Shown: positions 8,092-42,402, counted from the first letter of the stretch. The stretch is DNA of 44,849 nucleotides from Bacillota bacterium (GCA_012837925.1 DUQE01000131.1:1-44849), one strand, 5' to 3'. Notes: generated from the sequence alone by a model not told the origin. A program made the numbers and translations.

Positions 8092-9288
8092 TTAGAAATG
8101 GAAACTAACGCCCAAACCAAATCTTGTATTGTCGTTCGCATGCGTTACACGTGCAAAGATTTCTGCGTTCTTAGCAACTTCCACGCCCACCTGTGCCGTA
8201 AGCACACTCTTCTCGGCCCCTGATTGATAGCGAATGGATCCGCGCAGGGCCTTGTGTTCTCCCTGAACCTGCACCCACCAATGAGGATCCTGCAAGTCTC
8301 CGTCCGCTAGATCAAAGACGAGAGGAGAAAAGCCCGCCTCAAGATACAAGCCTGGGTAGGCCTCTACCCGATCCGAAACACCGAGCGCCACGAGGTGCTG
8401 ATCCTCCACATAGACCCAGCGAGCATCAATATTCGGACCACCATCCATTATGGCCACACCTACCGCGAGGTAGGAATAGGATGTCGTTCTTTGGTACTCC
8501 CCATCCACATAGAATTTGGGATCAAGGCGAAGTACAAGTCCTCCTTCAGGCAATTCGATCGGATTAAGGGGGAGAACGACCCAAACTCTACCTTCCCACT
8601 CCAAGACAGGATCAGGACGCTCCCAGATCAAATCACCAAGTCCACCTATATTCCCCACGGCCCGAGTCGGCCCCTCCAGATTTCCGGCCAGTGACGCCTC
8701 TACAAAGACCGCAAACAGTCTTTCGCCTTCTACCTCAACAATCGCGAGGGGAAGTTGTTCACCGGTTCTGCTCCATACTTCTGTATGCAAGATGTTGTCG
8801 GAATCAAAGGTCTTAATGTCATAGGCGGAGTAGATGGAGCCTTCTCTTGTAATCTGAATGGGTGACGCACTAATCTCCATGCCGGATAGCTGAAAAGGTG
8901 TTTCTTCTGTGTACAATTCGGAAACAAGTCGCTCTTCGACAACCCTCAGCGTGGATGTGCGTCCCTGAAGCACCACCAATCCTGGAGTGGCCATACGGAT
9001 CTTCTCTTCCCGACTGTCCATACCAACAAGTTGCGCCGGGGTGGGACTAAACACATCTAAAGTGCCTTCTTCCCACGAAAACGCAAAGCCAAGCTCTCTG
9101 CTCTCATTTCTGCGTATGGTAATCGCTTCTAAGAGTAGCCCATATTCCTCCGTGCTTTCAAACTCATAGACTTCAAACTGGTACACAACCTGCGGTAAGA
9201 GACTATCGGCTGCAAATGCAGGACTGACACCGGCGAAGAAGACAAAGAGCATGACTGCTAGACTAATACCCGTCATACGCCTGGACAT
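8092..9288 (-). CDS. Secreted protein with a diverged secretin-like core and beta-barrel-like C-terminus
   Basis: Signal peptide. PQVVYQFEVYEFESTEEYG and IRMATPGLVVLQGRTSTLRV resemble the secretin segments QILIQALVTEISRAELEEWG and IKANPRVVVSSGETVDLF in the upstream gene. The C-terminus ends in FGLGVSFHF, an outer-membrane barrel-like terminal strand. Confidence 0.6.
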   Translation of the reverse strand: MSRRMTGISLAVMLFVFFAGVSPAFAADSLLPQVVYQFEVYEFESTEEYGLLLEAITIRRNESRELGFAFSWEEGTLDVFSPTPAQLVGMDSREEKIRMATPGLVVLQGRTSTLRVVEERLVSELYTEETPFQLSGMEISASPIQITREGSIYSAYDIKTFDSDNILHTEVWSRTGEQLPLAIVEVEGERLFAVFVEASLAGNLEGPTRAVGNIGGLGDLIWERPDPVLEWEGRVWVVLPLNPIELPEGGLVLRLDPKFYVDGEYQRTTSYSYLAVGVAIMDGGPNIDARWVYVEDQHLVALGVSDRVEAYPGLYLEAGFSPLVFDLADGDLQDPHWWVQVQGEHKALRGSIRYQSGAEKSVLTAQVGVEVAKNAEIFARVTHANDNTRFGLGVSFHF

Positions 9289-9300
9289 GCTCTACCCCCC

Positions 9301-10515
9301 TTACTCAAGAATCTCTGCCGTGACGAAAATGAGGAGCTCCCGTTCTTCATCGGACTCCGATCGTTCGGAGAAAAACCAGCGGATGATGGGCAGTTTACCT
9401 AGCAAAGGCACCTGGCTCTTCTGGTCCGCAGTCTGTTGCAGCGTCATGCCGGCCAATAACAGGGTCTGTTCATTTTCGGTGAGCACGTTTGTGGTCACAC
9501 TGCTACGACGCACAGAGAAGCCCTCAGAGTTTCGATTGGTCAACTGTCCTGCCATGTGGCTGACCTCAGGTGTGATGGCCAGCTGAACTGTATCATCGTT
9601 GACAATACGGGGCGTCACGTTCAACGAGACTCCAACATTGATCTCTTCTAGTCTTCCAGAGGTGGAAACACCGGATAACACCAGGAAATGCGTTTCACCG
9701 GAGAACAGGTCTACCGTTTCCCCGCTGCTGACAACAACACGGGGGTTGGCCTTGATCTCGGCCTTGTTTTCGGCTTCTAACGCTCGAATCGACGAGAGAA
9801 CTTTTCCGAAGAAGCCGAAGTTGAACACGGTGTTCTCATAGATGATGTGATCCAACCAGGAGAGCTTTGAGGTGCTGGACGTCCCTGCCTCCTGCTGGTT
9901 CCGATTGTAGCTAAGAAGGTTCGATCCCCACTCTTCGAGTTCCGCTCGGGAGATCTCCGTAACCAACGCTTGAATCAGAATCTGCGGAACTGGTTTGTCA
10001 ATTGTCTCCAGCATCTCCAGGATTTGCTCAATGGTGGCTGGCGGTGCAGTGATGGTAACCAAATTACTGTATGCACCAGTCTTAATGTATTCCCTGTAGA
10101 TTTCGGGCATCAAATCCGTAACGTCCTGCGAGGTGATATACTGCAGCTCGTAGGTTGCCGTCTTGGCGAAGTTCTTATAGGACAGGCTCGTGGGATTCGA
10201 TGATCCAATGAAGTAGAAATCTTCAATCTTATGGACCTGATACCCTCCAGCCATCGTCATGAGGCGCAGTGCCCGCTCTAGAGGCACGTCCACCAAGTCC
10301 AGGGTAACTAAGCCCATCACAGAATCATCCACAATAATGTTGACCCCGGTCTGCAAGACCAACTCGGTGATGGCATCACGCAAGTCATCTTGAACAAAAA
10401 TCATGGAGACGAGTGGCTCCGAGACAGGTTCTTCCGATGCCGCAACCACTCCAACCTGTGCGCCAAGCAGAAGCAAGGCTAGTACAGCAACAAGTAAATA
10501 CCTAGTTCCTTTCAT
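9301..10515 (-). CDS. Secretin family protein (GspD/PilQ-like; STN/N0, N1 and secretin core)
   Basis: Signal peptide. STN-like FVQDDLRDAITELVLQTGVNIIVDDSVMGLVTLDLVDVPLERALRLM, N1 domain, and core IKANPRVVVSSGE...VGVSLNVTPRIVNDDTVQLAITPEVS...TLLLAGM...VPLLGKLPIIRWFFSER. Start likely at 10515 or 10524. Confidence 0.9.
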   Translation of the reverse strand: MKGTRYLLVAVLALLLLGAQVGVVAASEEPVSEPLVSMIFVQDDLRDAITELVLQTGVNIIVDDSVMGLVTLDLVDVPLERALRLMTMAGGYQVHKIEDFYFIGSSNPTSLSYKNFAKTATYELQYITSQDVTDLMPEIYREYIKTGAYSNLVTITAPPATIEQILEMLETIDKPVPQILIQALVTEISRAELEEWGSNLLSYNRNQQEAGTSSTSKLSWLDHIIYENTVFNFGFFGKVLSSIRALEAENKAEIKANPRVVVSSGETVDLFSGETHFLVLSGVSTSGRLEEINVGVSLNVTPRIVNDDTVQLAITPEVSHMAGQLTNRNSEGFSVRRSSVTTNVLTENEQTLLLAGMTLQQTADQKSQVPLLGKLPIIRWFFSERSESDEERELLIFVTAEILE

Positions 10516-10537
10516 AAATTCCATCCCTCTCTTATTT

Positions 10538-12061
10538 TCATGGTACAAGCAGACTTTGTTCTGCAGATGCAATTTCCACATCTTCGTTTAACACCCTGAT
10601 TTCCACCGTGTACGCTCCGGAGTCGACCAACCATCCATCACCCACCAGGTAGCCTGAATGGGAAGGCAATATTTGATCCATACCTTCCTGCAGCGATAGA
10701 GGAATCGTCTTGATGACCTCGCCGGTCGCATCTTTGAGGTAAGCGACCCCCAATGGAATGAGGTGCACATTGCCCAGATTCTCCACAACAACACTCAGTG
10801 ACAGGTCTTCCTCATTGGGGATGACTATGGCGCTGTTAACCCTGGCCTCCGTAGTCACGTTCTCGGGTACAACCGTTCGCAAGAGGATATCCTGTTGTCC
10901 AAGAACCCCTCCATCCTCAGCAGAACGGGCTGTAACTTCGATGTAACCATAGTAACCGCCACCTATGCCTTCATCCCGCGGTGCACGAATGACCAGCACA
11001 GCCCTCCCTGTGCGGCGGGGAGCGATCTCCATCACCTCTGGAGAACGCAGCTCAACCGTACAGTGTTCAAAAACCGATCTGGAGTAGTCGGGCTCAATCT
11101 CTGTAGCTGCAACTTCTACAAGAATGGCTTCAGACGAGTTGTTGGTCAGCTGCACAATTTGGCTGTCCGCCCCTCCTGGCCGCATTTCCACATCCAGGAG
11201 TGTTGGCTCGACTTGCAGGAACATATGATCCTCTGCACTGGCAAAGCGCATGTCCTCCACTACCAGCTTCTCCGAATGCACTTTTTGTCGGCCATTGTCG
11301 TAGTTGACAAAGAGGCGCAGGTCATACGTCCCCGGGAAAAGGGGCTTTTTCATGGGACCATCCAGCCATAGTTCTGCTCCTGGATAAATATCAAAGGCCG
11401 GTTTTTCTGCCAGCTCCACATCCTGCCGCCCGAACACCACCCGCTCCACGAGGGACCTGTTCTCATCCCTGATGGTCATCTCTGCAGTCATGGGATACAG
11501 CAGGTTGGACTGGTTTTTTACGATGGTTCTAGCCGTTAGCGATCCGTCTTCAGCGAGTTCTATGCCCAACTCTTCGACTGAGAGGTCCGCACGGAGTCCT
11601 GGGCGTTCAACATGGATGATGAAGCGAACTGCGTACCGTACTCGAAAGGTCACTTGTTCTGTTGTGTAAACCGTTTGGGGCTCTACCATCAAGGCGATAA
11701 CGTGCGTTCCACCGGCACTGTGGGGAATCCTGACCTCACCCCGAATCGCCCGTTCTTCTTCGGGTGGAATAATCAGAACATTGTTTTCGAGAACAACCCA
11801 ATCCAGAACAGGGTTGTCCACTGCGTCAAGATACTGGAGATTACCGTCAGTGTTTTGAAGAATACTATAAAGGTTGACGTGAATTGTCTCTTGCGTCTCT
11901 TCTGCTGTGAGAAAGACCTCAAAAGGATACCGTCCTCCAGGGCTTGCTTCGAGCTCTACGACAAGTGGTTGGACCGCTACAGCTTGTACCTTTTCTCCTG
12001 AGCAAAATGTGATAAGAACGACCATGAGTACAAACAAGATGCTGCGATTTACTGTCTTCAA
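10538..12061 (-). CDS. Large secreted protein with repeated Ig-like/DUF916-like domains
   Basis: Signal peptide from a TTG start with an upstream GGAGGG. Two modules of the form 'P...v...pGg....v.lt......v.v....' (N-terminal ASPGGRYPFEVFLTAE; internal VEPTLLDVEMRPGGADSQIVQLTNNSSEAILVEV), then further beta-rich domains. Confidence 0.65.
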   Translation of the reverse strand: MKTVNRSILFVLMVVLITFCSGEKVQAVAVQPLVVELEASPGGRYPFEVFLTAEETQETIHVNLYSILQNTDGNLQYLDAVDNPVLDWVVLENNVLIIPPEEERAIRGEVRIPHSAGGTHVIALMVEPQTVYTTEQVTFRVRYAVRFIIHVERPGLRADLSVEELGIELAEDGSLTARTIVKNQSNLLYPMTAEMTIRDENRSLVERVVFGRQDVELAEKPAFDIYPGAELWLDGPMKKPLFPGTYDLRLFVNYDNGRQKVHSEKLVVEDMRFASAEDHMFLQVEPTLLDVEMRPGGADSQIVQLTNNSSEAILVEVAATEIEPDYSRSVFEHCTVELRSPEVMEIAPRRTGRAVLVIRAPRDEGIGGGYYGYIEVTARSAEDGGVLGQQDILLRTVVPENVTTEARVNSAIVIPNEEDLSLSVVVENLGNVHLIPLGVAYLKDATGEVIKTIPLSLQEGMDQILPSHSGYLVGDGWLVDSGAYTVEIRVLNEDVEIASAEQSLLVP

Positions 12062-12137
12062 ACCTGTGTCCCTCCTTACGTCTGGAATGAATTTAAGAGA
12101 ACTGGGGGCGAGAAGCCCCGCCCCCGAGCATCGTGTT

Positions 12138-12698
12138 CTAGCTGGCCTTGGAAACCGTAAAGATTACATCCGTCTTGTACTCACCTGCCGCTTGCTCGTG
12201 AATGTCACCTAATTGTCCACTTACTACGACATCGTAGCTCCTGTGCTCAACACCCTGCAGTCCTGTGAAAAGGAATCCAGCGGTGAATGTCGCTTCATTG
12301 TTTTTCGTTGTAGCCGACCACGTGCGTGTAAAAATTCCCATTTCCTTGGTTAGTGCAACCGTGGTTTCGATCTTGTCGTTCATGAACCAATCTGCGTGAG
12401 TCAATGGCTTAAACGACACGTCCAGCTTGATCTTGGTGTTGGACTTGATCTCAAGACCCGTGGTTGCCGCACTGGTTTGATACCCTTGACCGGTCCACTC
12501 CAGTTCTAGATCGTTGGGGCAGATTTTGATGGCGGCGTATGGGCCAACTGTTCCGACTACGCTTAAGGTTCCCTTAACATTGCCCAAGCGACCCTCAATC
12601 CATGGGCACTCATCCTGTGGTGGACAATAAGCATACCCCACACTACCAAAGGCCAGCACTGCTACTAACACAACAAACAATACGGTGTACTTTTTCAT
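12138..12698 (-). CDS. Small secreted beta-rich protein (pilin-/spore-coat-U-/WxL-like)
   Basis: Clear signal peptide and good RBS (aaggagg). C-terminal motif AAGEYKTDVIFTVSKAS resembles the terminal strand of SCPU, DUF4402 or WxL-type domains. Confidence 0.6.
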   Translation of the reverse strand: MKKYTVLFVVLVAVLAFGSVGYAYCPPQDECPWIEGRLGNVKGTLSVVGTVGPYAAIKICPNDLELEWTGQGYQTSAATTGLEIKSNTKIKLDVSFKPLTHADWFMNDKIETTVALTKEMGIFTRTWSATTKNNEATFTAGFLFTGLQGVEHRSYDVVVSGQLGDIHEQAAGEYKTDVIFTVSKAS

Positions 12699-12892
12699 TG
12701 GTTAATCCTCCTTAATTGTGTACTTGCTCTGTGATATGCGACTGTCATGAAAACCTACGTTTGCTCTCCACCCCCCCTTCAGGCAGCAATCGGTCAACGG
12801 TATTTTATCCATATTGTGGTATCTTATGCATCACGAGCCATCCCCTGGATCTAGCTGGGCAAGCACCTTTGGCCTGTCCTCTTCGCCTGCAT

Positions 12893-13390
12893 CTAGTGTC
12901 CAAGTGCGCTGACAGTCACCCATATTGTTCCTTGATAGGGTCCAGCCGGCTGTTTTTCGATGCCCGTGATCTCCACTACTCCAGACACCACAAACTGATG
13001 ATCCCCGCTTTCTTCTTTCCTAATGGTGTAATTGTTGCCGGGTTTGAAATGGTGTACTGCAGACCTGTCTTCCACTAAGTAGGTCACGTCGAGTGCGTAC
13101 CGCTCTCGGCCAGGGCCTCGATAGCTCAGGGGATCGGCATAGAAGTTGACCTGAACTCCACTTTGAGAGGCGATGTTTAGTGTGGCGGAGCGTTCCGAAG
13201 GGTACAACCCCTCCGCACCTGGAATCGAAAACGATAAAAAGCCCGAAGACCAAACGGTGATATCTGAACCGTGTCCATGTGCTGATTCCTCAAAGACAAC
13301 ACCGATCATGAAGACAACCAAGACAATAAGCAAAACCGAGACTGACTTTCTCGCAACGGCCACCATGTATGCCCTCCCATCGATATCCAT
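12893..13390 (-). CDS. Small secreted beta-rich protein (pilin-/WxL-like)
   Basis: Signal anchor/peptide and C-terminal motif PAGPYQGTIWVTVSALGH, as in the neighbouring gene. Confidence 0.55.
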   Translation of the reverse strand: MDIDGRAYMVAVARKSVSVLLIVLVVFMIGVVFEESAHGHGSDITVWSSGFLSFSIPGAEGLYPSERSATLNIASQSGVQVNFYADPLSYRGPGRERYALDVTYLVEDRSAVHHFKPGNNYTIRKEESGDHQFVVSGVVEITGIEKQPAGPYQGTIWVTVSALGH

Positions 13391-13607: not shown

Positions 13608-13895
13608 ATGCAAGTAAAGTCGCTACACGCATCACTACCTAAAGTTAATCGGAATGTTCATATAATTAAAGAAAGAATTCCTAAATGCCCTCTATCCAAC
13701 CAACATTCGAATAACGATTAACGCCTTTGTAGGTTTTTCTGTTCTTTAGAACCGAACGAGTTTATGAAGGCTGCAGAATTTGGTGTAATGTTCTTCTTGA
13801 AGTCGACACTACGATGCTTGGATTGATATAATAACAAAGAGGGTTGCACCCACTCGTGGATTTTCCAACACTAGAGAGCGTGAGGGCGGCTATCT

Positions 13896-14723
13896 ATGAA
13901 AAGAATCTTGATTTTTATCACCATAATCTACGTATTATTCTTAGCCTTGACCGGATCGGCTTGGGCAAAAATGGGAAGGGTAAGAGAGTATAGCATTCAA
14001 CCTAGGGTTACGACAATTGAACTTTCCTCTTTTCTTGGTTCGATCAAATGGATTCCGATAACAAGCCCAGAACAAGCTCGGATTATCGTAGAAGTTGTAG
14101 CGGATGGAGTCTCCCAGACGGGTGTTAGAAATGCCCTTCTTCAGGTGCGTATCGTAGAGAATATTCGCCCAGCTTCTATTCTCTTAGAAGCCCGCAGGCC
14201 AGCACTACCTTCTGGTGTGGACTATGTAGAGGTCAACTACACAGTCTATGCCCCACCTGGGCAGTTTCGCCAGTTCAAAGCACAAACTGCCCATAGACCC
14301 ATCGAAATAGTCAGCAAGTTTAATGCTGAACTTACCTTGATTAATCACAATGGCCCGATCACTTTGCACTCTGGTCGCGGATCAGTCAACTTGCAGACAG
14401 ATCATGCCCCCATCATGCTGGGAGAACTGGATCTGGCCTTTTCTAGTCAAGTGCAAACCGATCATGGCGCCATCTCTGGCGTGGTTTCTTTTCCCCCGCA
14501 GGGTTCGTTTCTATTTAAGACAACCAACGCCCCAATTGAGCTAAAGGTGCCGCAAAATACACTCGGCACCTTTTACTTAAGCAATACCCTAGGAGCGATA
14601 GATTTTCAGCTCGGCGATGACATCTACAATGGTTCAAACGGCACAAGCGTCGAGAGAAGCGCAGAGCCGGTTGTTCATATCACTACATCCAATAGCACAA
14701 TTACAGTCAATGAAATCGATTAA
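13896..14723 (+). CDS. Secreted DUF4097-like beta-repeat protein
   Basis: Signal peptide and repeated LTINHNGPITLHSGRGSVNLQTDHAPIMLGEL / VQTDHGAISGVVSF / KTTNAPIELKV short beta repeats. TCGACA-18-TATAAT promoter at about 13803-13832. Confidence 0.65.
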   Translation: MKRILIFITIIYVLFLALTGSAWAKMGRVREYSIQPRVTTIELSSFLGSIKWIPITSPEQARIIVEVVADGVSQTGVRNALLQVRIVENIRPASILLEARRPALPSGVDYVEVNYTVYAPPGQFRQFKAQTAHRPIEIVSKFNAELTLINHNGPITLHSGRGSVNLQTDHAPIMLGELDLAFSSQVQTDHGAISGVVSFPPQGSFLFKTTNAPIELKVPQNTLGTFYLSNTLGAIDFQLGDDIYNGSNGTSVERSAEPVVHITTSNSTITVNEID

Positions 14724-41907: not shown

Positions 41908-42402
41908 CTACTGTGCAGCTACCGTTATCACCAGAGATGTCTTGTATTCTCCCGCGCTTAGTTCATACCAGGCCTTGTCTTTGTGAGGCCGAACACTGAG
42001 TTCGATCTGCACATCGTTGACTCCCTGCTTACGTTTGTAGGTGGCTCCAGCCCCTGGATTCCCGCCGAACATCCTTGTTCCTCCGATAAAGCACTCGTAC
42101 CAGAACCAGTTGTTTGTTTCTCCACCATCATTCTCAGCTACGCGGGTAGTCGAGATTTGTGCTTTCCAAGGAAAATTCGTTTCAATCGTACCGTTTACGA
42201 CAACTTTCCCGGTTGCAGTTCCATCATCAATGTTCAAGACAGCAGTATCCTGGAGCGTAAACTTTGCTGTTGGTGCGACATTGACAATGAAATCAACTTT
42301 TCCCGAAGAAGCGCCCTCTGCGGCCATCCCCGCATTGCTTAAGCCAATAACGAGTAGCAACGCCAAGACTAAACTCCATTTCTTCATGATACTTCCCTCC
42401 AA
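41908..42402 (-). CDS. Small secreted beta-rich protein, C-terminal motif shared with the 12138-12698 and 12893-13390 genes
   Basis: Signal peptide MKKWSLVLALLLVIGLSNAGMAAEG and C-terminal LSAGEYKTSLVITVAAQ. Confidence 0.6.
   Translation of the reverse strand: MEGSIMKKWSLVLALLLVIGLSNAGMAAEGASSGKVDFIVNVAPTAKFTLQDTAVLNIDDGTATGKVVVNGTIETNFPWKAQISTTRVAENDGGETNNWFWYECFIGGTRMFGGNPGAGATYKRKQGVNDVQIELSVRPHKDKAWYELSAGEYKTSLVITVAAQ

Follow-up and report, generated by a model that had tools for sequence, protein, structure and literature searches.

Organization of the locus

Five consecutive ORFs lie on the minus strand of the window, i.e. the whole analysed stretch of 44,849 nt, and an earlier note on this DNA was confirmed as to all five positions (Table 1). 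Inspection of their N-termini supports its assignment of signal peptides as well: each protein begins with a basic n-region, which is followed by a hydrophobic segment and then by a plausible cleavage site. The full ORF of S165 spans 12893-13390 (165 aa), and translation probably starts at 13366, where GGGAGGG is found upstream. Similarly, the secretin ORF covers 9301-10581 (426 aa), with a plausible ribosome site at the start that gives the shorter protein listed in the table. ORF507, the secretin and BAR were expected to be about 10-25 bp apart; inspection of the sequence gives gaps of 22 bp (ORF507-secretin) and 12 bp (secretin-BAR), and sequences resembling ribosome sites precede the likely starts in this stretch. 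The spacer between S186 and ORF507 is longer (76 bp) and contains a GC-rich hairpin with 8 G-C pairs in its stem. The z-score for the surrounding 79 nt is only -1.6, and the hairpin is a possible, weak candidate for an attenuator.

Table 1. Features of the five-gene cassette, listed in the direction of transcription
Feature	Position	Strand	Length	Description
S165	12893..13366	-	157 aa from likely start	Small secreted beta-sandwich-like subunit
S186	12138..12698	-	186 aa	Small secreted beta-sandwich-like subunit, S165 family
Hairpin	12104..12125	-		GC-rich, 9-bp stem, S186-ORF507 spacer; weak attenuator candidate
ORF507	10538..12061	-	507 aa	Soluble tandem double WxLIP-like protein, (DUF916-like + DUF3324-like) x2; candidate periplasmic chaperone
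Cassette secretin	9301..10515	-	about 404 aa	Signal peptide, N0/STN-like domain, one Secretin_N, Secretin domain
BAR	8092..9288	-	398 aa	Degenerate secretin domain (residues about 24-204) and barrel-like C-terminal region ending in F

Scans of single sequences against Pfam and NCBIfam gave no matches for S165, S186, ORF507 and BAR. A divergent gene (13896-14723, plus strand) encodes a secreted protein of 275 aa with no Pfam match, and a promoter-like site (11/12 matches) is located by this gene at 13803-13832.

ORF507 is related to WxLIP proteins

The DUF916-like character proposed for ORF507 was corroborated by profile comparisons. The family profile matches the solved EfmWxLIP1 structures (9i1y, E 9e-8; 9i25, E 6e-7) and finds genuine WxLIPs of the phylum member G060 (E 6e-9 and 3e-7), while the Pfam model PF06030 matches 10 of 39 family members (best E 1.6e-4). 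NCBIfam matches in the ORF507 and small-protein families are weak and scattered, the commonest for ORF507 being choice-of-anchor T (4/39). The two modules noted previously represent a genuine tandem duplication, as the halves are homologous (hhalign E 6e-27). Each half is composed of an A and a B domain, similar between halves (A-A 1.9e-15, B-B 2.3e-18), with no such similarity of A to B. In agreement, a profile of single-unit relatives aligns with each half at about 1e-32 and matches the ORF507 of the window and most of its relatives twice. AlphaFold models built on two-sequence alignments reached pLDDT values of 38 for ORF507 and 32 for S186, too low for use.

A C-terminal membrane or hydrophobic helix is absent in all 39 family members. 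WxLIP-type proteins of secretin-free phylum members do have a C-terminal membrane helix, and the ORF507 family thus departs from the organization of one unit followed by such a helix. Genuine clusters of WxL and WxLIP genes are present in G060 (two loci), a genome without any secretin match. G024, which also gave no secretin match, encodes a single WxLIP-like unit that ends in a hydrophobic helix; its gene directly follows that of a small protein, which was found with the profile of cassette small proteins (E 9e-6). Anchored, secretin-free single units and soluble, secretin-linked double units can therefore be compared within one phylum. On profile evidence, ORF507 consists of a WxLIP-homologous two-Ig unit that was duplicated in tandem and is devoid of the membrane anchor, and it is a candidate periplasmic chaperone. 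The cluster had been put forward as undescribed; ORF507 does match a described family, yet the WxL clusters from which that family is known lack a secretin.

Conservation and layouts of the cassette

Conservation was assessed mainly in a sample of 199 genomes across the phylum, within which nearly all searches were made. With ORF507 as a single-protein query, related proteins were detected in 25 of the 199 genomes and in 30 of 41 relatives, and the profile search extended this to 38 of the 199, single-unit relatives included. A secretin lies within 5 kb of 23 of the 24 full-length ORF507 relatives in the sample, and the remaining one is located on a contig of 7.3 kb. Full-length relatives were not found in any of the 147 sampled genomes that have no secretin. 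Scanning of the genome collection with ORF507 alone disclosed one relative (68% identical), and a plasmid tblastn search disclosed none. Absences are weak evidence, because many of these genomes probably stem from metagenomes and are split over numerous contigs.

Three layouts can be distinguished. Subtype A1, represented by the window, has the order S-S-ORF507-secretin-BAR, where S denotes a small secreted protein. This exact order occurs in eight genera of five families, and gene-neighbourhood comparison therefore shows that it is not confined to one genome. Subtype A2 is comprised of S, secretin and BAR, sometimes a regulator, and then often a two-domain S, ORF507 and more S genes. Type B, found in distant cassettes, contains a large S, a small S, an ORF507 relative, a secretin and often an extra protein of about 300 aa, for which the best PDB match of the profile is PorV (E 0.01, weak). 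The regulator, with BTAD and a GGDEF-like C-terminus, recurs in the vicinity of ten A1 and A2 cassettes (L034, L037, L039, L041, L043, L077, L081, L082, L083 and L085).

Since relatives hold these genes together across the phylum, their linkage is beyond chance. Identity matrices of secretin and ORF507 are correlated (r 0.91), with none of 2000 permutations reaching as high a value, and where paralogous cassettes exist within one genome, each keeps its own secretin-ORF507 pairing. Judged from these comparisons, secretin and ORF507 diverge together.

The cassette secretin and BAR

The presence of a secretin is evident from the PF00263 match (E 6e-39; 133.7 bits against a cut-off of 27.5), and Secretin_N scores just under its cut-off (28.1 against 28.2 bits). 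The best NCBIfam match is PilQ, at 148.7 bits far under the cut-off of 284, and the gene is located apart from PilMNO. A tree built from 64 sequences sets the 25 pilus and Tad-like secretins apart from every cassette secretin (99/98). Outside the pilus and Tad-like group sit five rows labelled "other"; three of them are cassette secretins from a second search or from a neighbouring species with a cassette of the same type, and the remaining two, of type B, adjoin ORF507 relatives. The complete secretin domain is retained in cassettes wherever the contig extends that far, one shortened type B copy excepted.

BAR, described previously as a secretin-like barrel protein, aligns with the secretin domain over residues 24-204 (profile comparison, prob 97, E 1e-10), and its longer relatives retain an STN/N0 domain. 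Outer-membrane barrels typically end in an aromatic residue (F). BAR itself ends in this manner, a beta-signal that concerns sequence ends and not the fold, and F is the C-terminal residue in 17 of 27 relatives, with W in one more. In line with the earlier description, the label that suits BAR best is that of a degenerate secretin whose C-terminal region is barrel-like.

The 44,849-nt window contains no gene for a pilus ATPase or platform protein, as had been claimed, and no phage-like ATPase was noticed among genes beside the cassette. The type IV pilus cluster of the same genome is located on contig C161 and includes PilB-, PilT-, PilC-, PilM-, PilN-, PilO- and PilQ-like genes, with PilM, PilN and PilO named from gene order and reading of sequences. 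The genome therefore has a PilQ of its own, and together with the separate tree group this bears out that the cassette secretin differs from the usual component of the pilus. Directly 3' of PilQ in this cluster (locus L052, 19298-19651, plus strand) lies a gene for a 117-aa protein with a barrel-like C-terminal end, a position that recalls that of BAR after the cassette secretin.

Type IV pilus ATPases were found in most cassette genomes. Five have neither a PilB-type ATPase nor PilC, two of these being 97-98% complete; about 2.3 such cases are expected from incompleteness alone, and pilus loss was not accepted as proof of cassette independence. Genome G192, in which pilus genes are accompanied by the cassette secretin alone, was likewise set aside as support for a pilus-linked role, as its pilus contig carries PilM, PilN, PilO and a PilP-like gene and then breaks off near the expected position of PilQ. 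The window genome also encodes Omp85 (E 3e-55), and it is therefore most likely diderm.

Small secreted proteins

The two small proteins share a C-terminal motif (PAGPYQGTIWVTVS in S165, AAGEYKTDVIFTVS in S186), and this claim holds for the family as a whole. Depending on the strictness of the pattern, the Y...T-V strand motif is found in 38-41 of 41 main-family members, in all of which it ends 1-8 residues from the C-terminus. The C-terminal Tyr and Thr are kept in at least 90% of 46 small proteins. For S165, 11 relatives were identified in the loci analysed, most of them adjoining an ORF507 relative, and profile comparisons, some strong and some weak, link S165, S186 and other S families of the cassettes. 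In type B, the small and the large subunit share a C-terminal domain (8/8 pairs tested, E 4e-5 to 2e-28).

Neither a pilin nature of these proteins nor their assignment to WxL or DUF4402 domains was established. The WxL model (PF13731) matches none of the 46 small proteins, and in comparison with genuine WxL proteins the last strand alone is aligned (20 residues, prob 58%). DUF4402 matches 3 of the 46 (best E 4e-5), below the cut-off in the phylum sample. The similarity to CsuE has an E of 0.1, and no convincing match to any solved fold was obtained. The DUF4402, CsuE and WxL last-strand matches fit a beta-sandwich without proving one.

The window encodes another member of the S186 family at 41908-42402 (minus strand), a secreted protein of 164 aa (iterated-profile E 1e-24); its gene stands alone, adjoining an MscS-type channel gene and 29 kb from the cassette.

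Proposed role and alternatives

The cassette can be interpreted, at a probability of about one half (0.52), as a module devoted to surface assembly in a lineage of diderm Bacillota. S165 and S186, and the larger two-domain subunits in other cassettes, would enter the periplasm by Sec, in line with the signal peptides seen, and would there be held by the soluble double ORF507, a function suggested by its homology. Lending of a strand by a chaperone to a subunit is established for pilus chaperones. ORF507 probably lends a strand to an incomplete beta-sandwich in the same way, and for WxLIP-WxL pairs completion of the WxL sandwich by a strand from WxLIP is predicted (PMC10599100). The secretin, together with its secretin-derived barrel partner BAR, may form the outer-membrane gate, as their family suggests; the subunits would then exit and be displayed or polymerised at the surface. 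Because no ATPase is encoded beside the cassette, the drive might come from subunit folding, strand exchange or borrowed pilus motors. Against this mechanism speak the small proteins, with no convincing solved-fold match, BAR, whose barrel character comes from sequence ends and resemblance, and the cassette itself, with no motor.

In monoderms, WxLIP-type proteins hold WxL proteins at the wall. Somewhat more tentatively, such proteins, doubled, freed from the membrane and coupled to a dedicated secretin and a secretin-derived barrel in diderm Bacillota, may constitute a "chaperone-secretin" pathway, i.e. ATPase-free export and assembly of beta-sandwich fibres, distinct from chaperone-usher systems and parallel to them.

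If ORF507 and the small proteins were a layer bound to peptidoglycan or to the surface, with secretin and BAR as anchors at the outer membrane, the cassette would be a scaffold with no transport, either S-layer-like or tethering the outer membrane to the wall. Peptidoglycan binding is proposed for the first domain of WxLIP (PMC10599100), LysM domains occur on the secretin-like and the barrel-like protein of one related operon, and BAR, as a degenerate secretin, may have lost transport. However, Pfam and NCBIfam indicate no established peptidoglycan-binding domain in the five proteins of the window, and the secretin domain itself remains complete in cassettes whose contigs reach it, except for the shortened type B copy; the scaffold is regarded as unlikely. 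Slightly less likely still is that the secretin serves as an alternative gate for motors of type IV pilus or Tad systems whose genes lie elsewhere, as in T2SS, with the small proteins as substrates. The pilus ATPases of most cassette genomes and the PilQ match, though far under cut-off, are in its favour; it is opposed by the PilQ within the genome's own pilus cluster, by the separate tree group and by the five genomes with neither a PilB-type ATPase nor PilC, the last with the reservation about incompleteness given above.

The small proteins might also be secreted in soluble form and have no functional relation to the secretin, their genes being placed beside it for co-regulation only, but this is improbable. 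While the BTAD-GGDEF regulator and the differing gene order among subtypes would agree with this, adjacency held across families and the co-divergence of ORF507 and secretin sequences argue against it.

Comparison with known systems

Among known systems, the WxL/WxLIP (DUF916-DUF3324) clusters of Lactobacillales and Bacillales have the same WxLIP-homologous two-Ig unit, and all their proteins are secreted. Their small and large proteins share a C-terminal domain (PMC10599100), as in type B cassettes, and the WxL proteins compared here carry an AGxY...T strand motif near the C-terminal end, as do the cassette small proteins. Differences are the doubled unit of ORF507 with no anchor, small proteins that do not match the WxL domain model, and, in a diderm, the link to both a secretin and a barrel-like protein derived from one. 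The cassette is thus a secretin-linked variant of the WxL/WxLIP kind. The proposal of a diderm WxL analogue is largely supported by homology, in ORF507 and in the small and large subunits; passage of subunits through the secretin, together with how the small proteins fold and polymerise, is inferred.

Chaperone-usher systems (PapD/FimC, archaic Csu) also combine a two-Ig chaperone-like unit, small beta-sandwich-like subunits and an outer-membrane protein with no ATPase, but the cassette has secretin and BAR in place of an usher. Sequence links are weak: EcpB at E 0.014 and PapD_N at E 0.03-0.07 for single-unit relatives, and the CsuE match of the small proteins. Secretins of type IV pilus, T2SS and Tad systems share PF00263 with N0-like and Secretin_N domains, while the cassette secretin is short, groups separately and has no motor, platform or pilin genes beside the cassette in the window. 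TasA-TapA filaments of Bacillus, a Bacillota surface fibre, are built of secreted beta-sandwich subunits by strand complementation (PMC10151520). This is the mechanism proposed for the cassette; TasA-TapA is, however, a monoderm system with neither secretin nor WxLIP, and no sequence similarity to the cassette was noticed.

Secretins are viewed as gates working with a type II, type III, type IV-pilus or phage machine, linked elsewhere to a motor. A widespread secretin with a WxLIP-type chaperone-like protein as constant neighbour would represent a new use of secretins. No description of the pairing was found in the open PubMed Central literature, and the pairing suggests an undescribed route for placing small beta-sandwich-like proteins on the cell surface. 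It also touches on the monoderm-diderm question in Bacillota: the same family is membrane-anchored in secretin-free members of the phylum and soluble, doubled and secretin-linked in others, and adaptation of surface systems to gain or loss of the outer membrane is therefore testable.

Single-unit operons

In operons designated type C, a single-unit WxLIP-like relative is accompanied by a small beta protein and, in many cases, by a barrel-like protein of 650-1050 aa. Similar operons were observed at L053 (G137:C58), L127, L128, L131, L133, L134 and L135, and at L124, a type C operon on contig C86 of the window's own genome. Several of them encode proteins with SdrD_B/CarboxypepD_reg C-termini, and L053 additionally encodes a LysM secretin-like protein. 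The 650-1050-aa proteins were considered as ushers, which was supported neither by Pfam (no Usher match) nor by PDB searches. Because they are not recognised as ushers, the idea that a chaperone-subunit pair was combined with different outer-membrane partners is suggestive only. In the control genome of Thermotoga maritima, PF06030 scores above the cut-off and a secretin is also present.
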